The translations under genes and the position numbers were made by a program. A model generated the notes under the pieces. It saw nothing but the letters and a program-made list of their open reading frames with translations, was not told the DNA's origin and ran no database searches. A DNA stretch of 64,000 nt, taken from positions 12,773,030 to 12,837,029 of the forward strand of contig NC_091147.1 of the NCBI RefSeq assembly GCF_041381155.1. The letters run 5' to 3'. Of the stretch, positions 1 to 39,996 are shown piece by piece (the stretch's first letter is position 1; each line of letters begins with the position of its first letter). Source of the DNA: Argopecten irradians. Taxonomy: Eukaryota; Mollusca; Bivalvia; Pectinida; Pectinidae.

Positions 1-3000
1 CTATGTATACCAGCTGAAGTGATGTTACTGTTGGTCCTTATCACTGTCCTATGTATACCAGCTGAAGTGATGTTACTGTTGGTCCTTATCACTGTCCTAT
101 GTATACCAGCTGAAGTGATGTTACTGTTGGTCCTTATCACTGTCCTATGTATACCAGCTGAAGTGATGTTACTGTTGGTCCTTATCACTGTCCTATGTAT
201 ACCAGCTGAAGTGATGTTACTGTTGGTCCTTATCACTGTCCTATGTATACCAGCTGAAGTGATGTTACTGTTGGTCCTTATCACTGTCCTATGTATACCA
301 GCTGAAGTGATGTTACTGTTGGTCCTTATCACTGTCCTATGTATACCAGCTGAAGTGATGTTACTGTTGGTCCTTATCACTGTCCTATGTATACCAGCTG
401 AAGTGATGTTACTGTTGGCCCTTATCACTGTCCTATGTATACCAACTGAAGTGATGTTACTGTTGGTCCTTATCACTGTCCTATGTATACCAACTGAAGT
501 GATGTTACTGTTGGTCCTTATCACTGTCCTATGTATACCAGCTGAAGTGATGTTACTGTTGGCCCTTATCACTGTCCTATGTATACCAGCTGAAGTGATG
601 TTACTGTTGGCCCTTATCACTGTCCTATGTATACCAGCTGAAGTGATGTTACTGTTGGTCCTTATCACTGTCCTATGTATACCAGCTGAAGTGATGTTAC
701 TGTTGGTCCTTATCACTGTCCTATGTATACCAGCTGAAGTGATGTTACTGTTGGTCCTTATCACTGTCCTATGTATACCAGCTGAAGTGATGTTACTGTT
801 GGTCCTTATCACTGTCCTATGTATACCAGCTGAAGTGATGTTACTGTTGGTCCTTATCACTGTCCTATGTATACCAGCTGAAGTGATGTTACTGTTGGTC
901 CTTATCACTGTCCTATGTATACCAGCTGAAGTGATGTTACTGTTGGTCCTTATCACTGTCCTATGTATACCAGCTGAAGTGATGTTACTGTTGGTCCTTA
1001 TCACTGTCCTATGTATACCAGCTGAAGTGATGTTACTGTTGGTCCTTATCACTGTCCTATGTATACCAGCTGAAGTGATGTTACTGTTGGTCCTTATCAC
1101 TGTCCTATGTATACCAGCTGAAGTGATGTTACTGTTGGTCCTTATCACTGTCCTATGTATACCAGCTGAAGTGATGTTACTGTTGGTCCTTATCACTGTC
1201 CTATGTATACCAGCTGAAGTGATGTTACTGTTGGTCCTTATCACTGTCCTATGTATACCAGCTGAAGTGATGTTACTGTTGGCCCTCATCACTGTCCTAT
1301 GTATACCAGCTGAAGTGATGTTACTGTTGGTCCTTATCACTGTCCTATGTATACCAGCTGAAGTGATGTTACTGTTGGTCCTTATCACTGTCCTATGTAT
1401 ACCAGCTGAAGTGATGTTACTGTTGGTCCTTATCACTGTCCTATGTATACCAGCTGAAGTGATGTTACTGTTGGTCCTTATCACTGTCCTATGTATACCA
1501 GCTGAAGTGATGTTACTGTTGGTCCTTATCACTGTCCTATGTATACCAGCTGAAGTGATGTTACTGTTGGTCCTTATCACTGTCCTATGTATACCAGCTG
1601 AAGTGATGTTACTGTTGGTCCTTATCACTGTCCTATGTATACCAGCTGAAGTGATGTTACTGTTGGTCCTTATCACTGTCCTATGTATACCAACTGAAGT
1701 GATGTTACTGTTGGTCCTTATCATGCCTATGTATACCCTATGTATATCACTGTCTTGTATACCAATGAAGTGATGTTACTGTTGGTCCTTATCACTGTCC
1801 TATGTATACCAGCTGAAGTGATGTTACTGTTGGTCCTTATCACTGTCCTATGTATACCAGCTGAAGTGATGTTACTGTTGGTCCTTATCACTGTCCTATG
1901 TATACCAGCTGAAGTGATGTTACTGTTGGCCCTTATCACTGTCCTATGTATACCAGCTGAAGTGATGTTACTGTTGGCCCTTATCACTGTCCTATGTATA
2001 CCAGCTGAAGTGATGTTACTGTTGGTCCTTATCACTGTCCTATGTATACCAGCTGAAGTGATGTTACTGTTGGTCCTTATCACTGCCTATGTATACCAGC
2101 TGAAGTGATGTTACTGTTGGTCCTTATCACTGTCCTATGTATACCAGCTGAAGTGATGTTACTGTTGGTCCTTATCACTGTCCTATGTATACCAGCTGAA
2201 GTGATGTTACTGTTGGTCCTTATCACTGTCCTATGTATACCAGCTGAAGTGATGTTACTGTTGGTCCTTATCACTGTCCTATGTATACCAGCTGAAGTGA
2301 TGTTACTGTTGGTCCTTATCACTGTCCTATGTATACCAGCTGAAGTGATGTTACTGTTGGTCCTTATCACTGCCCTATGTATACCAACTGAAGTGATGTT
2401 ACTGTTGGTCCTTATCACTGTCCTATGTATACCAGCTGAAGTGATGTTACTGTTGGTCCTTATCACTGTCCTATGTATACCAGCTGAAGTGATGTTACTG
2501 TTGGTCCTTATCACTGTCCTATGTATACCAGCTGAAGTGATGTTACTGTTGGTCCTTATCACTGTCCTATGTATACCAGCTGAAGTGATGTTACTGTTGG
2601 TCCTTATCACTGCCTATGTATACCAGCTGAAGTGATGTTACTGTTGGTCCTTATCACTGTCCTATGTATACCAGCTGAAGTGATGTTACTGTTGGTCCTT
2701 ATCACTGTCCTATGTATACCACTGAAGTGATGTTACTGTTGGCCTATCACTGCCTATGTATACCAGCTGAAGTGATGTTACTGTTGGTCCTTATCACTGT
2801 CCTATGTATACCAGCTGAAGTGATGTTACTGTTGGTCCTTATCACTGTCCTATGTATACCAGCTGAAGTGATGTTACTGTTGGTCCTTATCACTGTCCTA
2901 TGTATACCACTGAAGTGATGTTACTGTTGGTCCTTATCACTGTCCTATGTATACCAGCTGAAGTGATGTTACTGTTGGTCCTTATCACTGTCCTATGTAT

Positions 3001-4500
3001 ACCAGCTGAAGTGATGTTACTGTTGGTCCTTATCACTGTCCTATGTATACCAACTGAAGTGATGTTACTGTTGGTCCTTATCACTGTCCTATGTATACCA
3101 GCTGAAGTGATGTTACTGTTGGTCCTTATCACTGTCTATGTATACCAGCTGAAGTGATGTTACTGTTGGTGCCTTATCACTGTCCTATGTATACCAGCTG
3201 AAGTGATGTTACTGTTGGTCCTTATCACTGTCCTATGTATACCAGCTGAAGTGATGTTACTGTTGGTCCTTATCACTGTCCTATGTATACCAGCTGAAGT
3301 GATGTTACTGTTGGTCCTTATCACTGTCCTATGTATACCAGCTGAAGTGATGTTACTGTTGGTCCTTATCACTGTCCTATGTATACCAGCTGAAGTGATG
3401 TTACTGTTGGTCCTTATCACTGTCCTATGTATACCAGCTGAAGTGATGTTACTGTTGGTCCTTATCACTGTCCTATGTATACCAGCTGAAGTGATGTTAC
3501 TGTTGGTCCTTATCACTGTCCTATGTATACCAACTGAAGTGATGTTACTGTTGGTCCTTATCACTGTCCTATGTATACCAGCTGAAGTGATGTTACTGTT
3601 GGTCCTTATCACTGTCCTATGTATACCAGCTGAAGTGATGTTACTGTTGGTCCTTATCACTGTCCTATGTATACCAGCTGAAGTGATGTTACTGTTGGTC
3701 CTTATCACTGTCCTATGTATACCAGCTGAAGTGATGTTACTGTTGGTCCTTATCACTGTCCTATGTATACCAGCTGAAGTGATGTTACTGTTGGTCCTTA
3801 TCACTGTCCTATGTATACCAGCTGAAGTGATGTTACTGTTGGTCCTTATCACTGTCCTATGTATACCAGCTGAAGTGATGTTACTGTTGGTCCTTATCAC
3901 TGTCCTATGTATACCAGCTGAAGTGATGTTACTGTTGGTCCTTATCACTGTCCTATGTATACCAGCTGAAGTGATGTTACTGTTGGTCCTTATCACTGTC
4001 CTATGTATACCAGCTGAAGTGATGTTACTGTTGGTCCTTATCACTGTCCTATGTATACCAGCTGAAGTGATGTTACTGTTGGTCCCTTATCACTGCCATG
4101 TACCCTGATGATGTTACTGTTGGCCTTATGTCCTATGTATACCAACTGAAGTGATGTTACTGTTGGTCCTTATCACTGTCCTATGTATACCAGCTGAAGT
4201 GATGTTACTGTTGGTCCTTATCACTGTCCTATGTATACCAGCTGAAGTGATGTTACTGTTGGTCCTTATCACTGTCCTATGTATACCAGCTGAAGTGATG
4301 TTACTGTTGGTCCTTATCACTGTCCTATGTATACCAGCTGAAGTGATGTTTCTGTTGGTCCTTATCACTGTCCTATGTATACCAGCTGAAGTGATGTTAC
4401 TGTTGGTCCTTATCACTGTCCTATGTATACCAGCTGAAGTGATGTTACTGTTGGTCCTTATCACTGTCCTATGTATACCAGCTGAAGTGATGTTACTGTT
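1..4500. repeat. 48-bp satellite array, left block
   Basis: About 94 head-to-tail copies of a 48-bp unit (it contains CCAGCTGAAGTGATGTTACT) start at or before the left edge. Most units are identical. The few variants are CCAACTG for CCAGCTG and TTGGCCC for TTGGTCC, with rare short units near 1720-1760, 2710-2750 and 4085-4130. Because 48 is divisible by three and the unit has no stop in several frames, very long open frames appear on both strands (16-residue periods MLLLVLITVLCIPAEV and IRTNSNITSAGIHRTV). I read these as by-products of the unit length, not genes. The array ends at 4500, where the fossil retroelement begins. Confidence 0.97.
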
Positions 4501-14560: not shown

Positions 14561-17500
14561 GTCACTGCTATAAGTATACAACTGAAGTGATGTTTCTGTT
14601 GGTCACGTAGATCTATACAGATGAAGTGATAAGTATAACACACCATGTAGTTCTAGTGATGTTACTGTTGGTCTCGACTGTCGTTGGTGCCGTGTGCCAT
14701 CACTGTAACCCAGCTATGCTACTGTTGTACAAATGTATATAGTGATGTTACTGTTGAAGTATACAGCTAAGTGATGTTACTGTTGGTCCTTTATCACTGT
14801 CCCTATGTATACCAGCTGAAGTGATGTTACTGTTGGCCCTGATCACTGTGCCCTATGTATACCACTGAAGTGATGTTACTGTTGGTCCTTATCACTGTCC
14901 CCTATGTATACCAGCTACTGAAGTGATGTTACTGTTGGTCCCTTATTCACTGTCCTATGTATACCAGCTGAAGTGATGTTACTGTTGGTCCTTATCACTG
15001 TCCTATGTATACCAACTGAAGTGATGTTACTGTTGGTCCCTTATCACTGTCCTATGTATACCAGCTGAAGTGATGTTACTGTTGGTCCTGATCACTGCTA
15101 TGTATACCAGCTGAAGTGATGTTACTGTTGGCCCTTATCACTGTCCTATGTATACCAACTGAAGTGATGTTACTGTTGGTCCTTATCACTGTCCTATGTA
15201 TACCAGCTGAAGTGATGTTACTGTTGGTCCTTATCACTGTCCTATGTATACCAACTGAAGTGATGTTACTGTTGGTCCTTATCACTGTCCTATGTATACC
15301 AACTGAAGTGATGTTACTGTTGACCCTTATCACTGTCCTATGTATACCAACTGAAGTGATGTTACTGTTGACCCTTATCACTGTCCTATGTATACCAACT
15401 GAAGTGATGTTTACTGTTGGTCCTTATCACTGTACCTATGTATACCAACTGAAGTGATGTTACTGTGCTGGCCCTTATCACTGACCTATGTATACCAGCT
15501 GAAGTGATGTTACTGTTGGTCCTTATCACTGTCCTATGTATACCAACTGAAGTGATGTGTTACTGTTGGTCCTTATCACTGTCCTATGTATACCAGCTGA
15601 AGTGATGTTATGTTGTCCTTATCACTGCTGGCCCGAAGTGATGTATCACTGTCCTCACATGTATGTATACCAGCTGAAGTGATGTAACTGTTGACCCTTA
15701 TCACTGTCCTATGTATACCAGCTGAAGTGATGTTACTGTTGGTCCTTATCACTGTCCTATGTATACCATCTGAAGTGATGTTACTGTTGGTCCTTATCAC
15801 TGTCCTATGTATACCAGCTGAAGTGATGTTACTGTTGGCCCTGATCACTGCCCTATGTATACCAACTGAAGTGATGTTACTGTTGGTCCTTATCACTGCC
15901 CTATGTATACCAACTGAAGTGATGTTACTGTTGGTCCTTATCACTGACCTATGTATACCAGCTGAAGTGATGTTACTGTTGGTCCTTATCACTGTCCTAT
16001 GTATACCATACTGAAGTGATGTTACTGTTGGTCCTTATCACTGTCCTATGTATACCTAGCTGAAGTGATGTTACTGTTGACCCTTATCACTGTCCTATGT
16101 ATACCAGCTGAAGTGTGATGTTACTGTTGGTCCTTATCACTGTCCTATGTATGCCGCTGAAGTGATGTTACTGTTGGTCCTTATCACTGTCCTATGTATA
16201 CTAGCTGAAGTGATGTTACTGTTGACCCTTATCACTGTCCTATGTATACCATCTGAAGTGATGTTACTGTTGACCCTTATCACTGTCCTATGTATACCAT
16301 CTGAAGTGATGTTACTGTTGGTCCTTATCACTGTCCTAGGTATACCAGCTGAAGTGATGTTACTGTTGGTCCTGATCACTGTCCTATGCTGTATACTGTT
16401 CCCAGCTGAAGTGATGTTACTGTTGGTCCTTATCACTCACTATGTATACCCTGAAGTATGTTACTGTTGGTCCTTACTGACTATGTATACCAGCTGAAGT
16501 GATGTTACTGTTGACCCTTATCACTGTCCTATGTATACCATCTGAAGTGATGTTACTGTTGGTCATGATCACTATCCTATTGTATACCAGCTGAAGTGAT
16601 GTTACTGTTGGTCCTTATCACTGTCCTATGTATACCAGCTGGAGTGATGTTACTGTTGGTCCTTATCACTGTCCTATGTATATACCAACTGAAGTGATGT
16701 TACTGTTGGTAACCTTATCACTGTCCTATGTATACCAGCTGAAGTGATGTTACTGTTGGTCCTTATCACTGTCCTATGTTATATACCAACTGAAGTGAGT
16801 GATGTTACTGTTGACCCTTATCACTGTCCTATGTATACCATCTGAAGTGATGTTACTGTTGGTCCTTATCACTGTCCTTTGTATACCAGCTGAAGTGATG
16901 TTACTGTTGGTCCTTATCACTGTCCTATGTATACCAGCTGAGATGATGTTACTGTTGACCCTTATCACTGTCCTATGTAATACCAGCTGAAGTGATGTTA
17001 CTGTTGGTCCTTATCACTGTCCTATGTATACCAGCTGAAGTGATGTACTGTTGTCCTTATCACTTCCTATGTATACCATCTGAAGTTGATGTTACTGTTG
17101 TCCTTATCAGTCCTATGTATACCAGCTGAAGTGATGTTACTGTTGGTCCTTATCACTGTCCTATGTATACCAGCTGAAGTGATGTTACTGTTGGTCCTTA
17201 TCACTGTCCTATGTATACCAACTGAAGTGATGTTACTGTTGGTCCTTATCACTGTCCTATGTATACCAGCTGAAGTGATGTTACTGTTGGTCCTTATCAC
17301 TGTCCTATGTATACCAACTGAAGTGATGTTACTGTTGGTCCTTATCACTGTCCTATGTATACCAGCTGAAGTGATGTTACTGTTGGTCCTTATCACTGTC
17401 CTATGTATACCAGCTGAAGTGATGTTACTGTTGGTCCTTATCACTGTCCTATGTATACCAGCTGAAGTGATGTTACTGTTGGTCCCTTATCACTGTCCTA

Positions 17501-20092
17501 TGTATACCAGCTGAAGTGATGTTACTGTTGGTCCTTATCACTGTCCTATGTATACCAAGCTGAAGTGATGTTACTGTTGGTCCTTATCACTGTCCTATGT
17601 ATACCAGCTGAAGTGATGTTACTGTTGGTCCTTATCACTGTCCTATGTATACCAGCTGAAGTGATGTTACTGGTTGTTACTGTCCTATGTATACCCAATG
17701 AAGTGATATTACTGTTGGTCCTTATCACTGTCCTATTATACCAGCTGAAGTGATGTTACTGTTGGTCCTTATCACTGTCCTATGTATACCAGCTGAAGTG
17801 GTGTTACTGTTGGTCCTTATCACTGTCCTATGTATACCAGCTGAAGTGTGTTACTGTTGGTCCTTATCACTGTCCTATGTATACCAGCTGAAGTGATGTT
17901 ACTGTTGGTCCTTATCACTGTCCTATGTATACCAGCTGAAGTGATGTTACTGTTGGTCCTTATCACTGTCCTATGTATACCAGCTGAAGTGATGTTACTG
18001 TTGGTCCTTATCACTGTCCTATGTATACCAGCTGAAGTGGTGTTAATGTTGGTCCTTATCACTGTCCTATGTATACCAGCTGAAGTGATGTTACTGTTGG
18101 TCCTTATCACTGTCCTATGTATACCAGCTGAAGTGGTGTTACTGTTGGTCCTTATCACTGTCCTATGTATACCAGCTGAAGTGGTGTTACTGTTGGTCCT
18201 TATCACTGTCCTATGTATACCAGCTGAAGTGGTGTTACTGTTGGTCCTTATCACTGTCCTATGTATACCAACTGAAGTGATGTTACTGTTGTCCTTATCA
18301 CTGTCCTATGTATTACCAGCTGAAGTGTGTTACTGTTGGTCCTTATCACTGTCCTATGTATACCAGCTGAAGTGATGTTACTGTTGTCACTGTCCTTATA
18401 TCATGTACTGTTGCCTTTCACTGTCCACTGAAGTGATGTTACTGTTGGTCCTTATCACTGACCTATGTATACCAACTGAAGTGATGTTACTGTTGGTCCT
18501 TATCACTGTCCTATGTATACCAACTGAAGTGATGTTACTGTTGGTCCTTATCACTGCCTATGTATACCAACGAAGTGATGTTACTGTTGGTCCTATCACT
18601 GTCCTATGTATACCAACTGAAGTGTGGTGTTACTGTTGGTCCTTATCACTGACCTATGTATATCAACTGAAGTGATGTTACTGTTGGTCCTTATCACTGT
18701 CCTATGTATACCAGCTGAAGTGATGTAACTGTTGACCCTTATCACTGTCCTATGTATACTAGCTGAAGTGATGTTACTGTTGACCCTTATCACTGTCCTA
18801 TGTATACCAACTGAAGTGATGTTACTGTTGGTCCTTATCACTGTCCTATGTATACTAGCTGAAGTGATGTTACTGTTGACCCTTATCACTGTCCTATGTA
18901 TACCATCTGAAGTGATGTTACTGTTGGTCCTTATCACTGTCTTATGTATACCAGCTGAAGTGATGTTACTGTTGACCCTGATCACTGTCCTATGTATACC
19001 AGCTGAAGTGATGTTACTGTTGACCCTTATCACTGTCCTATGTATAACATCTGAAGTGATGTTACTGTTGACCCTTATCACTGTCCTATGTATACCATCT
19101 GAAGTGATGTTACTGTTGACCCTTATCACTGTCCTATGTATAACATCTGAAGTGATGTTACTGTTGGTCCTTATCACTGTCCTATGTATACCAGCTGTAG
19201 TGATGTTACAGTTGGTCCTTATCACTGACCTATGTATACCAACTGAAGTAATTGTTACTGTTGGTCCTTATCACTGTCCTATGTATACCAACTGAAGTGA
19301 TGTTACTGTTGGTCCTTATCACTGTCCTATGTATACCAGCTGAAGTGATGTTACTGTTGGTCCTTATCACTGTCCTATGTATACCAACTGAAGTGATGTT
19401 ACTGTTGACCCTTATCACTGTCCTATGTATACCAACTGAAGTGATGTTACTGTTGGCCCTTATCACTGTCCTATGTATACCAACTGAAGTGATGTTACTG
19501 TTGGTCCTTATCACTGTCCTATGTATACCAGCTGAAGTGATGTTACTGTTGGTCCTTATCACTGTCCTATGTATACCAACTGAAGTGATGTTACTGTTGG
19601 TCCTTATCACTGTCCTATGTATACCAGCTGAAGTGATGTTACTGTTGGTCCTTATCACTGTCCTATGTATACCAGCTGAAGTGATGTTACTGTTGACCCT
19701 TATCACTGTCCTATGTATACCAGCTGAAGTGATGTTACTGTTGGTCCTTATCACTGTCCTATGTATACCAGCTGTAGTGATGTTACTGTTGGTCCTTATC
19801 ACTGCCCTATGTATACCAGCTGTAGTGATGTTACTGTTGGTCCTTATCACTGTCCTATGTATACCAGCTGTAGTGATGTTACTGTTGGTCCTTATTCACT
19901 GCCCTATGTATACCAGCTGAAGTGATGTTACTGTTGGTCCTTATCACTGTCCTATGTATACCATCTGAAGTGATGTAACTATTGGCCCTTATCACTGCTC
20001 TATGCATACCAGCTGAAGTGATGTTACTGTTGGCCCTTATCACTGTCCTAGGTATACCAACTGAAGTGATGTTACTGTTGGCCCTTATTTCC
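14560..20092. repeat. 48-bp satellite array, right block
   Basis: About 114 copies of the same 48-bp unit as in the left block, same orientation. The first 600 bp (14560-15100) is badly disordered, with short and long units and foreign insertions. Further in, units are regular but more varied than in the left block. They include TTGACCC, CCATCTG, AGCTGTAG and GAAGTGGTG variants that the left block lacks. Irregular units recur at 15400-15680, 16380-17110, 17680-17750 and 18290-18440. Open frames here are products of the 48-bp period. Confidence 0.97.
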
Positions 20093-23800: not shown

Positions 23801-24112
23801 TGTGCGTGAAATAACACGTCACAATCTCTGTACTCTGACATAGCCTGGCATAGTCCTAATTTACAATAACAACCTGGTGAGGAATCACATCAGGGGGACT
23901 ATCCAGAAGATGTAAAATATGATTGATGTGTTGGTATTGATGTAGAAGTTTCTTCCATGAATGTTGAAAATGTAGTAAAATGTTGTAAAAGTTTCTTCGA
24001 CGAAGATGTAGAAGCAAAGTTGAAACTTGTGGTATAACACGTTCAACAAAAGTTTCATCGATGAAGATATATAAATAGGGAACTCGATGAATAATACATG
24101 AAGACGGCATTC
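20873..24112. other. Intergenic DNA with one foldback, no gene recognised
   Basis: AT-rich, with only short open frames lacking domains. Visible items are the foldback at 21721-21801, a direct pair of AAGGACCCA-type segments at 22077 and 22154, and a TGACGTCG (CRE-like) site at 22610-22617, just before a short ATG frame that meets a GTGAGT donor-like sequence at about 22641. This could be a first exon but is unsupported. AT dinucleotide runs occur near 23785. Confidence 0.5.
21721..21801. repeat. Foldback (inverted repeat), 81 bp
   Basis: The left arm CAACTTCGGTAGCGAAGGGT with ATTCAG is matched by CTGAATACCCTTGGCCAGCG with AAGTTG on the right. This is a short MITE-like hairpin with no coding capacity. 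Confidence 0.85.
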
Positions 24113-24832
24113 TGTTACATGAACGAATAACAGAAAGGAGAAACCAGCAGCTAAATTCAAAACACAATTTAATTATATATACAATATTATACAGAGATGG
24201 TTTACGATATCTAAAGTAATTGGTGGTGGTACAAGACTAGTACGATGATTTAAAGTGTTACCTTATCTGTATGCGAATGTCCTGGTATAATCCTTGATCC
24301 TTCCAGGTTTCAAATTAACAATAATCACAAATCCACAAGGAAAATTGAATGTCCACAGATGATTTGTAAAGTTCCAGGCAATATGAATAAATCCACACAA
24401 AGTGTTGTAATAATCCACAGATAAAGTCACAATAGCTCTCCCAATAGAATCTTATATGGCGCTGTACAGAATTCTTGATATGTCTTATTACAGGTCTTAG
24501 ATTACAGTTCTGATTGAGCCTTGGGCAGCTGGAGTATATATAGCTAAAAACCGTAATTCAAGAATATTGGAGATACCTCCTACTTCTAGAAATATCTAAC
24601 TAAAAACAGTAAACAAGTAAACACACATAACTTTCTGGAAATAGATCATTCTAGATATCTTACTTAAAATCAACATGTTTACAAACATATTTGTTTATAC
24701 ATCGATTATATTCTAGAAAGTTCTATAACCTAAATCAATGATATGACCTTCATAGGATGTATTGATAAAAAAAAGCTATAGGAGTTATCTCCCTTATCTC
24801 ATAACTACATGTATCTAGGGTCATACATAACA
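24113..24832 (-). repeat. 3' LTR of the Gmr1-like element
   Basis: Starts TGTTACAT and ends CATAACA, so it has TG...CA ends within a short inverted TGTTA/TAACA. It is nearly the same as 30009-30717. It is the 3' LTR because the coding parts read on the minus strand. Confidence 0.92.
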
Positions 24833-24846
24833 ACACCCCTCCTTAA
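24833..24846 (-). promoter_or_regulatory. Polypurine tract
   Basis: On the minus strand AAGGAGGGGTGT directly precedes the 3' LTR, where Ty3/gypsy elements place the plus-strand primer. Confidence 0.75.
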
Positions 24847-26200
24847 AGAAAAGAAGTTTTCTTGAAAGGAAACGTTTCTTGACATATCAAGTAATAATTT
24901 AAATCCTTGATAAAGCATCCAGCTAGAATATTGTCTTTCCCTTTGATATGTTTGATGTCAAGATTGTACTCTTGCAAAGTCAAACTCCACCTGAGAATTC
25001 TTTGATTTTTGTTTTTCATTTTCCCAATGAATGTCAAAAGGTTGTGGTCGGTGAAGACCCAACACAGGCACAACTGTAGTGCATAGATACACATCAAATT
25101 GGTTTAAGGCCAAAATCAATGCTAAACATTCTTTCTCAATGGTGGAATAATATCTCTGGTGTTTGTCAAACTTTTTCGAGAAATAACAAATTGGATGGTC
25201 AATTTGTTCAGTACCTTCTTGCATCAAAACAGCACCAACACCTACATCGCTGGCGTCAACAAACAGTTTAAACTGTTTATTAAAATCTGGAGCAGTCAGA
25301 ACTGGTGAGCTTGATATAGTATGGCTTTCAATTTCTCAAAGGCAGAACTTACATTCGTCTGACCAGACAAATTTGACATTTTTCTTTAACAAAGCAGTAA
25401 GTGGAGCTGCTATAACAGAGAAATTTTGACAAAATTTTCTGTAGTATCCAGCCATACCAAGAAAACCTCATCAGCTCTCTCTTGCCTCCAGGAGCTGGAA
25501 AATCTATAATTGATTCTACTTTGGCCTGAACAGGTTTAACCTGCCCCTGTCCTACAACATGGCCTAAAAATTCAACAGTTGCATGACAAAATTCACATTT
25601 CAATAAGTTTACAGTCAATTTCATGGTAGTGAGTCTTTCGAAGAATTCACGAATCCCGCGTAGATGGTCTTCCCACGTGTCGTGGTAGTTGATGACGTCA
25701 TCGATGTATCCACCACAGCCTTCCAGGTCTGATATCACGCTGTTAAGAAGACGTTGAAATGTTGCCTGGGCGCACGCTTCCATACCAATACCAAAACGGC
25801 ATACACTTTAGTAACTGTTACAAACCTTGTGAGGTAACAAATGCCGACACTACCTTTAGCAATAGAGTTCTGTTAAATGGCACCTGCCCAAGGATCCATG
25901 TCAAACAAGGTCAAACACTTGCTTACGTACTTGGCTTTTGCCAACTTTTGTCAATACATGTGTCAATCACTTGCGGAATTGGATTAAGAGTCTCTGTTTA
26001 ACCTGACAATCTCCGACTGAGTTTACCTTTCCTGAAGTCCAGTACAGAGAACCGTGTATGTCTTGTGTCTGGCTTTGGTAGCCAGAACACTATGGAGAGG
26101 CTCCATTCAACTTTTTGCTTGGTTCTGAATTAATAAAATTCATTGTCCAACATGTATACTGAATTTATTTACTTTAAGTGGTTCTTCTATTCAAAGGATT
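24843..26200 (-). pseudogene. RT and RNase H part (fossil element)
   Basis: RT motifs include GGYIDDVINYHDTWEDHL (the catalytic Y-x-D-D equivalent YIDD) with the following LLKCEFCHATVEFLGHVV. RNase H motifs include YYSTIEKECLALILAL, TDHNLLTF and DIKHIKGKDNILAG. Family-typical and near the 3' LTR. Broken. Confidence 0.85.
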
Positions 26201-26270
26201 GACACACGGTAAGGATGTTTGCTTGACAGGTGGCGCATCGCCTAGCATCCACGTCTCATGATAGATAGCA

Positions 26271-28379
26271 TCATCTGTTTTGCCTGGTGTATCCGGAAAC
26301 AAAATGATTAAACTCAAGTATCAAATCTTTCAGTTCATTGCGTTCCTTTTCTGATAGATGACACAGTTTCTTGTCCAAGTTCGCGAGCACATCTGAATTC
26401 CGTAACTTAACACCACAGTCTAAACCTACATCTTGTACACCACCATCTAAGTCTAATTTACAAATATCAGCTGTACTTTCACTTTGTGATGGTACAGAGG
26501 CCAAAGTAGCAATAGGTTGAGAGTCTTGCTCTCTTCTCTATCTACATATTTCTTAAGCATATTAACATGACATAATTGAGTTTTCTTGCGCCTCCCTGGA
26601 GTTTGTACAATGTAGTTAACATCATCATCGACCTTTTTCTCAACAACATAAGGTCCAAAATATCTAGCTTGCAAAGGCTGACACCGGTATTGGTAATTGA
26701 GCCAAAATTTTGTCACCTGGATCAAAACTTCTTGCACGGGCATCTTTATCATACCATGTTTTCATTTTGGTTTGAGTAACGGCCAAATTTTCTTTTGCCA
26801 GTTCACATGCCCTTGTCAACCTTTGCTTAAAGTTAGACACATACTCTAAGAGATACACTTTAGAATCTTCGTCCAAAATTTTGTCTTTCAAAATTTTCAA
26901 AGGACCACGTACAGTATGTCCAAACACAAGTTCAAAGGGACTAAAGCCAAGAGATTCTTGTACAGATTCTCTAACGCCAAACAACAACATGTGTATACCT
27001 TCGTCCCAATCTCTTTTGTTTTCAAAACAATAAGATCTCATCATATTCTTCAATGTCTGATGAAAACGTTCTAAAGCACCCTGAGACTCTGGATGATAAG
27101 CACTAGACTTATACTGCTTGATCTGGAGCTGGTACATTGACTTGTTGAAAAATACCAGACATGAAATTCGAACCTTGGTCCGATTTGGACAGCTTTTGGA
27201 AGACCAACCAGTGTAAAAGAATTTAACCAAAGCCTTGACTATGTTTGGGGCTTTAATATTCCTGAGTGGAATTGGCTTCAGGAAAGCGTGGTGGAAGCAC
27301 ACATAATAGTTAAATGATACTCATTCCCAGACTTAGTTTTGGGTAGAGGACTACACAGTCCTATAATGACATCTACTAAATGGTTCCTCAAATGCTGGAA
27401 TGGGGTGCAAAGGTGCAACAGGGATTTTTCTGATTAGGTTTCCCTACCATCCCCCCTGACAAGTATGACAAGACCTACAAAAATCAGCCACATCCCGTTT
27501 CAACTTGGGCCAAAAGAAGTGATCTAAGATCCTGTTATAAGTCTTGGTCACACCTAAATGCCCTGCCATAGGTACGTCATGAGACAAACTTAGAATATCT
27601 TGCCTATACCTTGGTGGGACAACTATTTGATTGACAACCTTCCAGTCTTCCTCGGGAGACACATCAGGGGGGCGCCACTTGCGCATCAACACACCTGACT
27701 GACGGAAGTAACAAACCGGGACTTTCTCAGCCTCTTCCTCACTCAAAGCCCGATTACACAATAAGGAGATTTCAGGATCTTTCTCCTGTTCTACTATAAG
27801 CTCCTCTCTAGACAAAGATGATTTACTCATCATGTCAGACAAAGAAGTACCCTTGTTAGGAACAACTCTATCACTATCAAAGTCTACAGGATTGCTCAAA
27901 AGATCACACTTGCTCCCGACATCCTCTATATCATGAGCCAAGAAAGTGTCACCTAACCCTGGACTATAATGATCCTCAACTACTGCAACATCAGAAACCT
28001 TCTTACTCATTGAACGAGTTACAGCACAAGAAGGGAAAATACCAGGAAATTCCTGTTGAATAGTCTCAGCATCATCTGTTTTATCTGGAATACTGGACAC
28101 TAAGGGATCTACCCTAACTTTCTCTCCAGCCAAGTCATTGCCTAAAATGAGCGACACGCCCTCTATGGGAAGTTCCGGTCTAACACCAATGGTGACAGGC
28201 CCAGTAACCAAATCTGACTTTAAATAAACACAATGGAGAGGCACATTAACAAAACCTAACTCTACACCTTGAAGCAAAACACTACTACCAGATGAGGTCT
28301 CCTCAGACAAAGGCACTACGCCATCTAATATCAAAGAATGAGAAGCCCCAGTATCTCGCAAAATCTTCACAGGTTTCAA
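26271..28379 (-). pseudogene. Protease, integrase, and integrase-RT linker (fossil element)
   Basis: The protease motif ILRDTGASHSLIL lies at the upstream end. A His2Cys2 integrase finger follows (HLGVTKTYNRILDHFFWP, then CRSCHTCQ), then the integrase core end (SAYHPESQGALERFHQTLKN, then SLGFSPFELVFGHTVRGPL) and the C-terminal part (ARYFGPYVVEKKVDD, LCHVNMLKKYV). The linker that usually leads into RT (HLSEKERNELKDLILEF) is next. Integrase therefore precedes RT. Broken. Confidence 0.88.
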
Positions 28380-29854
28380 GTTGGTAATATCACTAGTAAG
28401 TGAAACAAAACCTTCAGAAATGAAGGGAGAGTACTTCTCTCCAAGACGCTATCAGACTCTGAGCTCTTAATCTCAACAGACACTTTAGAATCTTCCACAA
28501 TATCACTAAGTTTCTGACTAGGCTTTGACATAGCTAACACAGAAGGAACTGACTGTTTACGCCTTTGCTCCTTACGCTGGAGAGAATAACATTCAGACAT
28601 AGTATGCCCTACTTTCTTGCAGTAATTACAAACAGGACCAGAAGGAGACCCCACACCTACCCTATCATCTGTTTTAGAAGCAGACTTAGTTTTATCACCT
28701 AATTTTAGGTTTGTCGTTGGAAGGGCCACTAAAGGTTGGGTTCCTAGGCTGACCAAATTTACTAGTACCTGTGGTACTGTTTTTGTCTTGAGAACTGTTT
28801 TTTAACAAATGAGCCTTTGTGGGTGAGAGCGTAATCATCAGCCATTGTAGCTGCTTCACTAAGTGTTTCAACTTTTCTCTCATCTAAATGAGTTTTTATG
28901 TTTGAGTGGACACAACGTTTAAACTCCTCTATCAACAATAATTGCCTCAATTTACCGAAATCCTCATCAATTTCTTTAGAATCACACCACCTATTAAATA
29001 ATTGTTCCTTTTCTCTGGCAAATTCTACATGAGTTTGTTCATCTCTCTTTCTCGAGTTTCGAAATTTCTGGCGGTAAGCCTCAGGAACTAACTCATAAGC
29101 TTTCAAAATAGCTTTCTTGACTACTTGGTAATTTGAAATATCATCAACAGATAAAGAAGAATAAATGTCTCTAGCTTTACCAATCAAGACACTCTGAAGA
29201 AGCATTGTAAGCTTATCTTCAGGCCATTTCATACTATCAGCTATTTTCTCAAAATGTAGAAAATACTTGTCAACTTCTTTCTCTTGAAAAGGAGGAACTA
29301 ACCTAATATTTCTACTGACATCAAAACCTCTGTTTCCTTGTAAACCCCTAAAAGTTGGATTACTTGAACCGTCTTGAGAAGCTAGCTCTAATTCTTTAAT
29401 TCTAAGTTCTGTTTCAGCTTGAATTTTCTGCTTCTCTAGTTCTAACATCTGATCTCTCTCGATCTCTTTTTCTTTTAATTTTCTTTCCATTTCTTTTTCT
29501 CTTAACTCTCTTTCTTTGTCTATTTCTTTTTCTCTTAACTCCTTTTCTATTTCTCTTTCTCTCATTTCTTTCTCTATTTGTTTCATTTTCATTTCATTCT
29601 CTATTTGTTTTCATTTTCATTTCATGTTCAAGTTCCATTTGTCTAATTTGGATTTCTGAAGTGACTGTTTCCTCTATACTATCTAATGCACTAGAGTCAA
29701 ATTTGCCATTGTCAACAAAATATCTTATAATTACATTCCTAATTTCAGCTTTCCTCAAATTAGTTTTGATAGTAAGGCCTAAATGTTTTACCCAATAACA
29801 GTAAATCCTTCTTACTAACTTGCAAAAGAACTTCCAGGGATGGCGCTTTAACAA
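28376..29854 (-). pseudogene. Gag-like region with CCHC knuckle (fossil element)
   Basis: The N-terminal side is a long Glu/Lys/Arg-rich coiled-coil-like helix (REKEIDKERELREKEMERKL). A gag-like core (PPFQEKEVDKYFLHFEKIA, with WP and an ARDIYSSLS segment) follows, then a zinc knuckle CNYCKKVGHTMSEC. This is typical of Ty3/gypsy gag. Broken into a few pieces. Confidence 0.85.
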
Positions 29855-29984
29855 ACTGTTCTACCTGCATAGAAGTCATATTTATCTAGCTGTTGGTTTC
29901 AAATGTAAACTCAAAGTTTGTACACAAATTTTGAAAATTTCTTAATTAATTTTTCAAAGTTAGATTTCACAAATAAAATATCGA

Positions 29985-30008
29985 TCTCGGACAAGAGCCC
30001 CCAATTTC
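29985..30008 (-). promoter_or_regulatory. Primer-binding-site-like sequence
   Basis: Directly inside the 5' LTR the minus strand reads TTGGGGGCTCTTGTCCGAGA. This closely resembles the tRNA-Pro primer site of many retroviruses (TGGGGGCTCGTCCGGG) with two extra bases. The match is by eye. Confidence 0.6.
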
Positions 30009-30717
30009 TGTTACATTAACGAATAACAGAAAGGAGAAACCAGCAGCTAAATTCAAAACACAATTTAATTATATATACAATATTATACAGAGATGGTTTA
30101 CGATATCTAAAGTAATTGGTGGTGGTACAAGACTAGTACGATGATTTAAAGTGTTACTTATCTGTATGCGAATGTCCTGGTATAATCCTTGATCCTTCCA
30201 GGTTTCAAATTAACAATAATCACAAATCCACAAGGAAAATTGAATGTCCACAGATGATTTGTAAAGTTCCAGGCAATATGAATAAATCCACACAAAGTGT
30301 TGTAATAATCCACAGATAAAGTCACAATAGCTCTCCCAATAGAATCTTATATGGCGCTGTACAATTCTTGATATGTCTTATTACAGGTCTCATTACAGTT
30401 CTGATTAGCCTTGGGCAGCTGGAGTATATATAGCTAAACCGTAATTCAAGAATATTGGAGATCCTCCTACTTCTAGAAATATCTAACTAAAAACAGTAAA
30501 CAAGTAAACACACATAACTTTCTGGAAATAGATCATTCTAGATATCTACTTAAAATCAACATGTTTACAAACATATTTGTTTATACATGATTATATTCTA
30601 GAAAGTTCTATAACCTAAATCAATGATATGACCTTCATAGGATGTATTGATAAAAAAAAGCTATAGGAGTTATCTCCCTTATCTCATAACTACATGTATC
30701 TAGTGTCATACATAACA
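30009..30717 (-). repeat. 5' LTR of the Gmr1-like element
   Basis: Matches 24113-24832 almost throughout, with the same TGTTACAT and CATAACA ends. Differences are a few substitutions and several small indels, which suggests recent insertion or, in part, assembly noise. Confidence 0.92.
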
Positions 30718-34317: not shown

Positions 34318-37300
34318 ATGGCAGCGCCCGTTACACACGTGATATTTGACGTGGATGGACTGATATTAGGTGAGGCCTAATACACTTCTGATTTACGCTA
34401 GAAAATGTAACATCAAAGTTATATTTCCAGTAGATAATTAAATTATTCACTAGATACATTTAGCTGGTTCAGCAGTAATCAGTTGTCTGCAGTGAAATAA
34501 ATCTATCACACGCACCTGTCACCTAATATATTACTCCTACATGTGTACTGTATGAGGCCTTATTCCACCCTGGTTATAAAAAAGTATCTCGTCGTGTTAA
34601 CCTCTAACATTGTTGGAGAGCTGTCACCTTAATTAGTAACCTTATTAATCCATTAATTAGATGAGGGAACAATGTCAACTCAGTGTGTCGGTCACGTACA
34701 GATCAGATCTTGCCTTCAGAATGTAACCAAAAAAGATATTTGGTATAAGGCCTAGATTTGGTAACCCAACTAATTTTGTCAAGGAAAATGCAAAATTATA
34801 CTTATTATACATGTATTTTATAGAACACATACAGCCACATATTAAAATGTACTATATATGGGTAAAGTACACAAAAACCAGTGCATTAAAAATTTGATAC
34901 ATGTACATGTAATTAGTTATTAATTATACTGTATATGAACTGTTGATGCAAAATATGCTCCTTTAGCTATTCTCTGATAAAATGACTTTGGAATTATCCT
35001 CATATTACTTTGTTAATGACCTCTTTGTCAAAATGTTGAATTTATCTGCATGTACATAACCCTTTTTTGGTTAAAATTATTCCTCCATGGTAATGTATAC
35101 TTAATGTAGATACAGAACGGTTGTACACACAAATCACAGACAAGATTGTGGAGGTAATATATATATACATATACAATGCATATAAAAAATAAATCTCAAC
35201 GACCTTCCTCTAGTACTTTCGCCACTTCAGAAAGAGCCATCATGAAATGGCGAAAGTACTAGAGGAAGGTCGTTGAGTTTTATTTTTTATATATTCAACT
35301 CTACATGGACACATATTTTTTCTTGATTTATACATTATATGTATACTTTAGATACAGAACGGTTGTATACACAAATCACAGACAAGATTGTGGAGCAGTA
35401 TGGTAAAACATTCACATGGGACGTCAAGTCTAAACAGATGGGCAAGAAGGATGTCGAGGCAGCAAAGATTCTTATTGGTAAGTTCGTCTGCAGTGAATAT
35501 TACTCTCATTAACGTCGAAATTCTAATGGTCCTCATTTTAACTGTTTTATAATGATTTTTTAACCTGAGATCATTTCTGCAAACCTCACCAGTTTCTTTC
35601 TGAACAATTTCATTAGGCATGGAAGTTACAAACCATGGCTAGTGTAGCAGTGTTCCAGATAATTTTTTGAGGGGTGGGTAATTGTACTGTACTCATACTT
35701 TCGTAGAAGAGGGGTACAACACTGACTTCTGTGCAAACCCAAAACTAAACCAATATTTTTCACTAAAAGTTATGATGTTATAGTATATTCAGTAATCGAT
35801 GATATGCTAGCAATTGTGCAAATATCCATCTGAAACAAGAGCACAGATGATGCAGACTCAAAATTGAGTGGAATCATCACATTTTACAAAATTTCTTCTG
35901 ATTTTACTACTCAATGTAAGTGCTCATACTAATTGGGTTGAGTAATTACAAATTTTGTAGGGGTAATTTGTACAAGTCCATACAATTTTAGCGGGTAATT
36001 GACAGGTTTTAAATGGGTATTTTACCCATGTACGCATCTAAACTGGAGCATTGTGTAGCATACATTTAGTGTTGTATTTAGTCAGCAGTGTCAAAAGCGA
36101 TCGTGAACATCAATCTTCAACTTTGATTTTGAAGCTTTTACACTTTTTGCACCCTAACTTATGTTGTTTGATCATTTGTCTGATGAAGGTGATAGGGTAC
36201 ACATCGTAACAGTCACCAAAACATTACACATCAAATATTCATTGGTTGCTGTATGTGTGTCAATACCATTACATAAAGTATGGGGATTGTCTCCAATGAT
36301 AATGCAATATAATGAGGTATGTTGCTCAACAAAGATATGTAAATGTGACATATTAATATTTCAGATGAACTACAACTTCCAATAACACCAGAAGAGTACC
36401 TAGTGCAGGCGAGAGCTCAGCAGAAAATTCTGTTCCCCACCGTCGATCTCTTACCAGGTAAAACCCCGTCACAGATTTACCTCTAGTAGATCTCTTACCA
36501 GGTAAAACCCGTCACAGATTTACCTCTAGTCGATCTCTTACCAGGTAAAACCCTGTCAAAGATTTACCTCTATTCAATCTCTTACTAGGTAAAACCCTGT
36601 CACAGATTTACCTCTAGTCGATCTCTTACCAGGTAAAACCTCGTCACAGATTTACCTCTATTCGATCCCTTACAGGTAAAAACCCTTTACAGATTTACCT
36701 CTATTCAATCTCTTACCAGGTAAAAACCCTTCACAGATTTACCTCTATTCGATCTCTTACTAGGTAAAACCCCGTCACAGATTTACCTCTAGTCAATCTC
36801 TTACCAGGTAAAGCCTGTCACAGATTTACCTCTAGTCAATCTCTTACCTGGAAAAACCCTGTCATAGATTTACCTCTAGTCGATCTCTTACCAGGTCAAA
36901 CCTTGTCACAGAATTACCTCTAGTCGAAATCTTGCCAGGTAAAAATCCTTCACAAATTTTCCTCTAGTCGATCTCTTACCTGGTAAAGCCTGTCACAGAT
37001 TTACCTCTAGTCAATCTCTTACCAGGAAAAACCCTGTCATAGATTTACCTCTAGTCGATCTCTTACCAGGTAAAAATCCTTCACAAATTTTCCTCTAGTC
37101 GATCTCTTACCTGGTAAAGCCTGTCACAGATTTACTTCTAGTCAATCTCTTACCAGTAAAAACCCTGTCATAGATTTACCTCTAGTCGAAATCTTGCCAG
37201 GTAAAAACCATTCAAAAATTTTCCTCTAGTCGATCTCTTACCAGATAAAACCCTGTCATAGACTTACCTCTAGTCAATCTCTTACCAGGTAAAGCCTGTC

Positions 37301-39996
37301 ACAGATTTACCTCTAGTCAATCTCTAACTAGGTAAAACCTTGTCACAGATTTACCTCTAGTCGATCTCTTACCAGGTAAAACCCTGTCACATATTTATCT
37401 CTAGTCAATCTCTAACTAGGTAAAACCTTGTCACAGATTTACCTCTAGTCAATCGTTTACCAGGTAAAACCCTGTCATAGATTTACCTCTATAGTCAATC
37501 TTTTACCAGGTAAAACCCTGTCATAGATTTACCTCTAGTCAATCTCTTACCAGGTAAAGCCTGTCACAGATTTACCTCTAGTTAATCTCTAACTAGGTAA
37601 AACCCTGTCACATATTTATCTCTAGTCAATCTCTAACTAGGTAAAACCTTGTCACAGATTTACCTCTAGTCAATCTTTTACCAGGTAAAACCCTGTCATA
37701 GATTTACCTCTAGTCAATCTCTTACCAGGTAAAGCCTGTCACAGATTTACCTCTAGTCAATCTCTAACTAGGTAAAACCTTGTCACAGATTTACCTCTAG
37801 TCGATCTCTTACCAGGTAAAATTCTGTCACATATTTATCTCTAGTCAATCTCTAACTAGGTAAAACCTTGTCACAGATTTACCTCTAGTCAATCGTTTAC
37901 CAGGTAAAACCCTGTTATAGATTTACCTCTATAGTCAATCTTTTACCAGGTAAAACCCTGTCACAGATTTACCTCTAGTCAATCTCTGACTAGGTAAAAC
38001 CCTGTCACATATTTATCTCTAGTCAATCTCTAACTAGGTAAAACCTTGTCACAGATTTACCTCTAGTCGATCTCTTACCAGGTAAAACCCTGTCACATAT
38101 TTACCTCTAGTCAATCTCTAACTAGGTAAAACCTTGTCACATATTTATCTCTAGGTAAAACCTTGTCACATATTTACCTCTAGTCAATCTTTTACCAGGT
38201 AAAACCCTGTCATAGATTTACCTCTATAGTCACTCTTTTACCAGGTAAAACCCTGTCACAGATTTACCTCGAGTTGATCTCATACAGATTGATGATGGAA
38301 GTGGATGTTCAAATACTGTCGCTGTTATATATATCTTTGCCATGGTAATTTCTGATGCCGAGATTTTTATATGAGAAATATAGAAACAAGTCTATTGTAG
38401 GTTCTTTATTCAACGGTTCTATTTGATGATTTAAATTAACTCTGGAAGTACATGTAGGTATTCATTAACAAATATTAAACTTGTTGAGCATTATTAATCT
38501 TTTAAGATATTATCTTAATTAAGATTTAATACGAAATTTAAAATATTAGACATATTTATACTTTTTTGTATACACAGTAATTTGATTATTTTATCATGAA
38601 ATAATTAATGACAGTTTCCACTTTTACAAGGAGCTGAAAAGTTGATAAAACACCTCCACAAACATAAAGTTCCTATTGCCGTGGCGACCGGCTCTAGTAA
38701 GCGAAGTATCGGACTAAAGACAACTCGTCACCAAGAACTGTTCAGTCTCTTCCTCCATTTTGTATACAGCAGTGATGATCCGGAAGTGAAACACGGCAAA
38801 CCTGCCCCTGACTGTTTCCTGATCGCATCAAGTCGATTCTCAGACAGCCCCGATCCTAGCAAGGTACATGCATTTATCAAAGTTTATAAAAGGTCCAAAA
38901 AGTTAATCTACCTCGTATATATATCTATTTATACACAGTGTATATATATGTATTAAATATCATAGAAACACAATTTAACAAAGCATGACAATTTATTGAC
39001 TCTTGCCCTATCCGGGGCCTCGAACTCACGATCTATGGCACCAAATCACCTAGCCAAACATACCCACGCCTTCTACCACTGCACCACATCCACGTATATA
39101 TATGTATTGAATTTGTTCTTTTTTACCACCAAGTCAGTATAAATGAGACAGTATCACACAGTGTAAGTGATGTTATCTAGTTTCTTGCTCATTTCTAGTC
39201 CCAGGTGTAACAAAATCATAATCACATTTTCTTCATAATGAGGTAAAAACGGTATAAAAAAGCTAGTATATTAATAATCCGAAATAAAAGACCAAAATAA
39301 ATTCAAAGTAAAATCAGAATCCTTTCTATGGAATATATATTCAGCCTCTATAGGGACTTCTTCAGTCCAAAATCTACTTTACTTCAGTTCTTATAAATAT
39401 TCATGAAGGAGTTCTTGTAAAACACAGCAATGAACAAGTTTTCAATACATCTAAACTATTTTGTCGCCTATCTGGCAAAAGCATTATGATACAAAAATGT
39501 TAATACAAATCCCACCACACCTGTGTTGATTTACTTATTTACCCTTGAATACTTTTAATGAACTGTCCCAGTCTTTGTATTGGAAGAGTTTATTTTGTCT
39601 TCAAGGATGAATGGGTTAAAACCTACAGAATGTACCATTCGAATGGCATAGTCATTTATTCACAAATGAAATCAAATCTCACAACAAAGTATGCAACACC
39701 TTTAGTTATGATAGTATAGAAAGTTATTGGTGACAAATTAGATGAAGTGTACTATATAAAATCAACTTAATATCACAAAAAAAATATGTAATGCTCTAGC
39801 TGTTTTTCCCCAGTGCCTGGTGTTAGAGGACGCTGTGAACGGTGTGGTAGCGGCCCATGCCGCGGGGATGCAGTGTGTCTGGGTACCGGACCCACAACAA
39901 CCACAGGATGGATACAAGGAAACGGCCACCCTCACACTTACATCACTTACAGAGTTCAAACCAGAACTATTCGGACTGCCACCATATGAGGATTGA
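34318..39996 (+). CDS. PUDP: Pseudouridine-5'-phosphatase (HAD family), five exons
   Basis: The exons, all with GT-AG introns, are 34318-34369, 35352-35477, 36365-36457, 38631-38863 and 39814-39996. Joined they give 687 bp: 228 codons plus TGA, the normal length of HDHD1/PUDP proteins. HAD motifs are all present: FDVDG with nucleophile Asp11 and acid/base Asp13, Thr110 in AVATGSS, Lys147 in HGKPAPD, and Glu173-Asp174 in CLVLEDAVNG. The DTERLY stretch after motif I is characteristic of this subfamily, whose human member dephosphorylates pseudouridine 5'-phosphate in the cytosol during modified-nucleotide breakdown. The start ATG begins MAAPVTHVIFD and is the only one that leads into motif I. 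No lesion was seen in any exon. The introns are loaded with repeats, some derived from the gene's own exons. The subfamily assignment is by recognition; other HAD phosphatases of the same clade are the alternative. Confidence 0.95.
35094..35153 (+). pseudogene. Truncated duplicate of PUDP exon 2
   Basis: 35110-35153 repeats the first 44 bases of exon 2 (GATACAGAACGGTTGTACAC and onwards) with one clear substitution and its upstream AG. It stops at GGAG and is followed at once by GTAATA, a plausible donor. Inclusion would add 44 bases and shift the frame. It lies in intron 1, 242 bp before the true exon. Confidence 0.88.
35181..35292. repeat. Foldback between the two exon 2 copies
   Basis: CTCAACGACCTTCCTCTAGT with ACTTTCGCCA pairs with TGGCGAAAGTACTAGAGGAA and GGTCGTTGAG over about 40 bp. 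A MITE-like hairpin; it may have taken part in the local duplication. Confidence 0.92.
36441..38282 (+). repeat. 44-bp minisatellite starting in PUDP exon 3
   Basis: About 42 copies of a 44-bp unit with GATCTCTTACCAGGTAAAAC and CCTGTCACAGATTTACCTCT. The first unit begins inside exon 3, so the last 17 exon bases and the GTAAAA donor are the founder copy. Almost every unit keeps CCAG|GTAAAA or a close variant. Some units form larger repeated groups (for example units with ATATTTATCTCTAG recur in blocks at 37381, 37606, 37826 and 38001). It fills most of intron 3. Confidence 0.95.
38955..39093 (-). mobile_element. tRNA-derived SINE in PUDP intron 4
   Basis: The minus strand reads GTGGTGCAGTGGTAGAAGGC (box A-like) and then GTGAGTTCGAGGCCCC (box B-like) 50-60 bases on, as in a tRNA gene promoter. 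It is not a full tRNA. Direct repeats GTATATATATGTATT flank it at 38940-38954 and 39094-39108. About 140 bp. The SINE family was not identified. Confidence 0.82.

Follow-up and report, generated by a model that had tools for sequence, protein, structure and literature searches.

A minisatellite in PUDP of Argopecten irradians repeats the exon 3 splice donor, an anatomy that recurs at other genes of the genome

Introduction

The human gene IFI6 (6-16, G1P3) is a direct precedent for minisatellites that span a splice donor. Here we describe a 44-bp minisatellite in intron 3 of PUDP, the pseudouridine-5'-phosphatase gene of Argopecten irradians. It lies in a stretch of 64,000 nucleotides, the window (C14:12773030-12837029; C1, C14 and C66 are contig labels of the 846-Mb genome). 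The human array was reportedly described by Turri, Cuin and Porter in 1995, and its unit is said to be 12 bp long. In arrays of the IFI6 type, the tandem repeat extends across a genuine exon-intron boundary and copies the end of the exon together with the donor, and the PUDP array does so. According to PMC4526556, downstream repeat units of IFI6 serve as donors and give rise to three mRNA species and isoforms, whereas the decoy donors counted at PUDP are all predicted to lead to an early stop.

Other described systems share single features with this locus. Minisatellites with units of about 30 bp, some of them at exon-intron boundaries, alter introns in human segmental duplications, where 27 modifications were kept after manual inspection (PMC2812944). 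There, transcripts document new or altered introns in recent paralogues, whereas the PUDP array lengthens an intron that already existed. In the Rogers model, introns are gained by tandem duplication of an AGGT segment, with multi-copy cases in fission yeasts (PMC4974935). Tandem copies of an AG/GT segment (a slash marks the junction), which yield units bounded by GT...AG, are common to that system and to PUDP. The duplications of the model create a new intron, whereas none was gained at PUDP, where the paralogue carries an array-free intron at this very position. Recursive-splicing ratchet points juxtapose an acceptor-like site and a donor, AG/GT, as the units of the PUDP array may do; they occur mainly in long introns (PMC8605326) and are well conserved in Drosophila, whereas the array sits in a 2.2-kb intron. 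An earthworm gene also has an intronic minisatellite, and donor seeding is not mentioned in the accessible text of that report (PMC12783039). A search of the open-licence literature by title and start of abstract found no account of donors as a recurrent, genome-wide birthplace of minisatellites, which is weak evidence of novelty. A single donor-spanning minisatellite is of an already known kind, and its recurrence in one genome is the part worth following.

Anatomy of the PUDP array

The PUDP gene is intact, and its five exons join into an open frame for a 228-residue protein. Residues 3-227 align with the solved chain 9m7l (Pseudouridine-5'-phosphatase, 1.1e-77), and 3l5k (haloacid dehalogenase-like hydrolase domain-containing protein 1A) is matched at 1.7e-77. 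Judging by the full-length similarity to solved PUDP and the open frame, the gene is the PUDP orthologue. Exon 3 ends at 36457/36458 (...CTCTTACCAG/gtaaaacccc, with GTAAAACCCC on the intron side), and intron 3 is 2173 bp long (Table 1).

Tandem Repeats Finder (TRF) reports a 44-bp period at 36442-38154 with 39 copies and 86% matches, as well as a 175-bp period that extends to 38285. Wrap-around decomposition gives 43 units, 42 of which contain the donor. Several unit variant classes follow one another in order along the array, for which TRF gives periods of 44, 131 and 175 bp, a pattern expected of repeat turnover. The exon tail is repeated exactly over 16 bases, GTCGATCTCTTACCAG, with eight exact later copies. 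No later copy of the 17-base tail exists, the base preceding all eight 16-base copies being A and not C. GT is kept in register in 37 of the 41 later donor-bearing units. The whole 9-mer CAGGTAAAA, an exact CAG/GTAAAA, is found in 18 of them and TAGGTAAAA in 11, and GTAAAA occurs 32 times within 36442-38282, the real donor included. Scored with a generic donor frequency matrix not derived from Argopecten irradians, which affects all GT scores, 22 of the 114 GTs in the array equal or exceed the real donor, compared to 60 of 4303 elsewhere in the window. This corresponds to 11.9 against 0.97 such sites per kb, a 12-fold density.

The first-pass annotation had described an array at 36441-38282 built from the exon 3 donor. 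The derivation from the donor is borne out by the repeated exon tail and by a paralogue that has the same junction without an array. Its count of about 42 repeats agrees with the 42 donor-bearing units plus a remnant, with the start corrected to 36442; the 17 repeated exon bases that it gave are one too many. The many donor-like 5' sites it attributed to the array are present.

Origin of the array

The 34-base core of the unit was searched for in the whole genome with up to three mismatches. All 26 forward matches fall within the PUDP array and there are none on the reverse strand; the backward control of the core gave no match on either strand in the same search. A dispersed satellite or a transposon-borne repeat was rejected, as the core is confined to this array genome-wide. 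When the whole array was used as a DNA query, three further matches (65-67% identity) were obtained; they fall on C66 and on C1, at two places that proved to be other arrays. Because the 16-base tail is exact in eight later units and the core is absent elsewhere in the genome, the source of the array is local.

A paralogue of PUDP is located downstream, with about 59 kb between the PUDP stop and the first exon of the paralogue; its matched exons span C14:12871834-12874759. Exon 3 of the paralogue stops at the corresponding residue, with VELLPG in place of the VDLLPG of PUDP and CTACCAG/GTAACG at the junction. The following intron 3 is 276 bp long and lacks an array. TRF run on 5.5 kb (C14:12870501-12876000) found no repeat within that intron; two 18-bp repeats of about two copies each lie outside it. 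Since the paralogue has homologous exon sequence without an array, the exon 3 junction is the likely seed of the array in PUDP. The simpler reading is that the array would be younger than the gene duplication.

The last exon of the paralogue with the adjoining intron end is 93.5% identical in DNA to window positions 39780-39994, and its exons 2-4 share only 40-63% protein identity with PUDP. This suggests gene conversion between the two genes at exon 5.

Predicted outcome of the decoy donors

The in-frame TAG at the end of unit 1 lies upstream of the second donor, so that every decoy, in any frame, would yield the identical 99-residue product, made of 90 PUDP residues and nine others. With the YAGGT[AC] sites of the array taken as decoys, this holds for 35 of 35. 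The first-pass annotation had foreseen a frameshift followed by TAG if the second donor were used; TAG is in frame as it stated, and since it precedes that donor the frameshift is not decisive. Nonsense-mediated decay is expected for decoy-spliced transcripts, as the stop would still be followed by the exon 4-exon 5 junction.

The nine donor columns are conserved at 0.927 against 0.913 in the rest of the unit, ranking 11 among 44 windows. A second alignment gives 0.926 against 0.921, with rank 19 of 44. Column conservation thus provides no support for selection maintaining decoys at PUDP. The first-pass annotation had suggested that the decoys could compete with the real donor or buffer it; neither role is backed by these columns. 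Folding of 600 nt of array RNA gives a z of -4.6, and the units carry complementary AGGUAAA and UUUACCU. A self-sequestering RNA structure was set aside, because repeats with internal complementarity fold in this way without function.

Donor words in tandem across the genome

We searched the whole genome for triplets, defined as three copies of a word at gaps of 14-44 bases, and used the same word reversed as control. Donor words are in excess throughout: 10813 triplets against 1317 reversed for CAGGTAAA, 7320 against 966 for AGGTAAGT, 5049 against 1154 for AAGGTAAG, 8957 against 519 for CAGGTAAG and 4277 against 958 for CAGGTGAG. The shuffled word GAAGTGTA gives 1569 against 1466. Single occurrences of CAGGTAAG number 48641 in the genome and those of its reverse 16213, a threefold difference, and the fraction that starts a triplet is 18.4% against 3.2%, about six times higher. 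Among the matches listed, CAGGTGAG occupies 11 places in the first 37.6 Mb of C1 (two with a single hit), compared to five for GAAGTGTA in all 75.5 Mb (three with a single hit). The PUDP case, which the first-pass annotation had treated as singular, is one of several such arrays in the same genome.

The acceptor-like word TTTTACAG gives 4376 triplets against 2705 reversed; it has no genome baseline, and in 48.8 kb of unmasked window the word occurs 0 times and its reverse 10 times, so that acceptors are not ranked below donors. In the first listed arrays of the broken donor word CAGCTAAG, from C1:1622794 and C1:3835677 onwards, the units also hold donor-like GTs (CCGGTAAGT and ACAGGTATC). A donor-bearing array with 58-bp spacing is found at C1:754k, outside the places whose flanks were read.

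Exon ends at array edges

The 5' flanks were read on the donor strand at 24 donor-bearing places. Thirteen were among the matches listed for CAGGTAAA, AGGTAAGT, AAGGTAAG and CAGGTAAG; the rest are the C66 array and 10 of the 11 CAGGTGAG places, C1:30362k being left out as an apparently inverted copy. One of the 24, C1:11613k, consists of a single triplet only. At several unrelated genes the array begins at the end of a coding exon supported by homology, and the exon tail recurs exactly within the stretch analysed at each place (Table 1). A later UreF unit, at C1:27388557, carries AGAGCGAGTGTCCGACAG, 18 bases of the exon tail. The chain matched at C1:29406k has an abbreviated name, which we take to be SMARCAD1; the Pfam score of this exon is below the gathering score.

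Five more places look coding by eye, with an acceptor and an open frame that runs into the donor (C1:2890k, 6082k, 21176k, 23253k and 37580k), and the homology searches gave no family match for any of them. The frame at C1:21176k may resemble a glucose transporter; a PDB search gave no match. As a control, the flanks of four of the five shuffled-word places on C1 were read, and ten of their longer frames gave 0 Pfam matches. The same kind of Pfam search missed PUDP exon 3 itself, so its sensitivity for single exons is low both ways.

True donors at array edges are unsurprising on their own, because CAGGTAAG is three times commoner than its reverse and many of its occurrences may be real donors. 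More weight falls on the overrepresentation of the donor word in arrays.

Four of these regions have further features. About 0.3 kb upstream of the array-seeding enolase exon, at about C1:220493-220970, a second array, with a 36-bp unit, shows TTTCCAG in the units displayed. In the probable coding exon beside the donor array at C1:37580480-37581150, LLKTMLSYAKGETPVGL stands twice as an internal direct repeat, as though duplication had extended deeper into the exon. The donor-word array at C1:1098100-1099450 has a partly palindromic 48-bp unit (CCTAACTAATACACTGTATTAGG) and no recognised exon at its edge. At about C1:1979850 it is the 3' edge of the array, and not the 5' edge, that resembles an exon start, a possible acceptor-seeded case.

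Table 1 Features of PUDP and its array (window positions) and exon ends at which donor-bearing arrays begin elsewhere in the genome
Feature	Position	Strand	Basis or detail
PUDP exon 1, coding part from ATG	34318..34369	+	MAAPVTHVIFDVDGLIL; donor TTAG/gtgagg
PUDP exon 2	35352..35477	+	ag/ATACAG .. TTATTG/gtaagt
PUDP exon 3, 93 bp	36365..36457	+	final 16 bases (36442-36457) open repeat unit 1; whole-gene protein homology
44-bp minisatellite, 42 donor-bearing units and terminal remnant	36442..38282	+	TRF, wrap-around decomposition
Authentic exon 3 donor GTAAAA	36458..36463	+	in-frame join to exon 4, LLPG/AEKL, cf. LMPGAEKL in the aligned PUDP chain
In-frame TAG closing unit 1, with its final base opening unit 2	36484..36486	+	intron bases 27-29; translation ...LLPGKTPSQIYL-stop
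Terminal decayed partial unit	38273..38282	+	unit decomposition
PUDP exon 4	38631..38863	+	acceptor ttttacaag/GAGCTG
PUDP exon 5 including stop	39814..39996	+	open 228-residue translation
Enolase exon end	C1:221k	donor strand	homology 9.1e-14, match to last residue of query; exact tail recurrence 9 bases
Guanylate cyclase exon end	C1:1266k	donor strand	homology 1.7e-5, match to last residue of query; tail recurrence 20 bases
Myotubularin-related exon end	C66	donor strand	homology 4.7e-6, residues 2-24 of 58 only; tail recurrence 6 bases
Sepiapterin reductase exon end	C1:5520k	donor strand	homology about 8e-11 and 6.3e-15, match within four residues of end; tail recurrence 10 bases
UreF exon end	C1:27388k	donor strand	homology 5.3e-5, match to last residue of query; tail recurrence 5 bases
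Exon end of presumed SMARCAD1	C1:29406k	donor strand	homology 4.9e-13, match within one residue of end; tail recurrence 13 bases

Other features of the window

One 48-bp unit (CTATGTATACCAGCTGAAGTGATG...) makes up two large arrays about 10 kb apart, at window positions 1-4500 and 14759-20088. On the minus strand at about 24000-30400, frames resembling a long terminal repeat (LTR) retroelement are present, with reverse-transcriptase-like and integrase-like stretches judged by eye. The direct repeats of this LTR-like element may be represented by two translated stretches that resemble each other, one near 24.1-24.5 kb and one near 30.0-30.4 kb.

Discussion

We consider it probable that the PUDP array is a tolerated minisatellite, seeded by duplication of the exon 3 donor, of which the first donor is used, and that the same process has acted at other donors. 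A tandem duplication of a 44-bp segment across the donor (16 exonic and 28 intronic bases) would have been followed by growth and homogenisation into intron 3 through ordinary repeat turnover. Unit 1 preserves the exon end, and splicing at this first, authentic donor would give an unchanged mRNA. The array would be tolerated, and effectively neutral, because the first junction is intact and the mRNA unchanged. A transcript that uses a later copy instead would, by prediction, encode only the 99-residue product and be cleared by nonsense-mediated decay. Duplication and growth of the same kind could have occurred at other donors of the genome, and we infer that the recurrence reflects preferred formation, or preferred persistence, of arrays at donors. 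Candidate causes of such a preference would be mutational, namely breaks linked to transcription or R-loops, or the retention of useful U1 sites. More tentative, and held with somewhat more doubt than belief, is the broader proposal that minisatellites of this genome arise preferentially at its splice donors, where AG/GT duplications would repeatedly turn the ends of exons into long arrays of GT-AG modules that splicing either overlooks or removes in a second step.

The array could instead be regulatory: its decoys would compete with the real donor and divert a tunable share of PUDP transcripts into unproductive splicing, with array length as the dose. The identical 9-mer in 18 later units, the 22 GTs that equal or outscore the real donor and the single early stop reached by 35 of 35 decoys would all suit such a function. 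We nevertheless regard it as unlikely, given that the donor columns at PUDP show no extra constraint (ranks 11 and 19 of 44) and that ranks are mixed in two other arrays found without donor words, with 4 of 38 at C66 and 26 of 41 at C1:2890k. Quite unlikely, too, are units that act as self-erasing GT-AG modules, each running from GT to the acceptor-like CTTACCAG, in which a transcript spliced first from a decoy would retain a removable mini-intron and a second splice, between the real donor and the last AG still present, would restore the exact mRNA, or joining would proceed stepwise as at ratchet points. The AG of the exon 3 tail scores 4.28, above all four real acceptors (-0.45 to 3.55) and above 98.7% of the AGs in the window, by a generic acceptor matrix, which affects all AG scores. 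By the same matrix, 28 of 37 AG/G sites in the array reach or exceed the score of the gene's weakest real acceptor, a loose yardstick given that 22.7% of all AGs in the window do likewise. The acceptor quality of the exon tail may be chance. New GT-AG introns are known to arise from tandem copies of an AGGT segment (PMC4974935), but known ratchet points lie mostly in long introns (PMC8605326), compared to 2173 bp here.

A minisatellite born inside the intron, whose edge matches the exon tail by coincidence or was copied onto it, seems very unlikely. Arrays can convert their flanks, but the exact 16-base match is to coding sequence in which the PUDP residues are conserved (VDLLPG; the paralogue has VELLPG), and the same anatomy is present at several unrelated genes with unrelated units. 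An assembly artefact would be more improbable still. The length of a tandem array is easily mis-assembled and the copy number may be wrong, but the unit variants fall into ordered classes and the reading frame of the gene is open to either side of the array.

A number of observations weigh against the seeding of arrays by exon donors as we propose it. An ancestral array may have been lost later in the paralogue, and it is from sequence that we infer the use of the first donor at PUDP. Only 6 of the 24 places have a coding exon with homology support that ends where the array begins; among these, guanylate cyclase has no PDB match, sepiapterin reductase no Pfam match, and the UreF and SMARCAD1 exons no NCBIfam match, so that some of the exons are supported by one source each. 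No exon was recognised at the 5' edge in 13 of the 24, several of which have short open frames (the family search excluded C1:1979k, C1:1099k, C1:217k and C1:11613k among them), so other routes to donor-bearing arrays exist. Triplet counts are hits and not arrays, which gives longer arrays more weight, and the baseline of single occurrences was measured for one word, CAGGTAAG. The broken donor CAGCTAAG, with 1563 triplets against 136 reversed, shows a ratio as large as that of the donor words; the ratio is large because the CpG-bearing reversed word is rare, and the total is 5.7 times below that of CAGGTAAG. Arrays of the same unit are found at two places on opposite strands (C1:847k and C1:1066k; C1:30128k and C1:30362k), so some arrays were copied as blocks. 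Across 15 arrays, the donor columns are conserved above the rest of the unit in nine, below it in five and equally in one, in a test biased upward by the discovery of most arrays through exact donor words (the exceptions are PUDP, C66 and C1:2890k).

If donor seeding is correct, exon-intron junctions would drive both intron growth and the birth of repeats, and the tails of coding exons would be tied into a fast-turnover array. A genome with an excess of donor words in tandem and with arrays at exon ends would make the birth sites of minisatellites directly testable. Such arrays would also be natural experiments on how the spliceosome chooses the first among dozens of equal donors.
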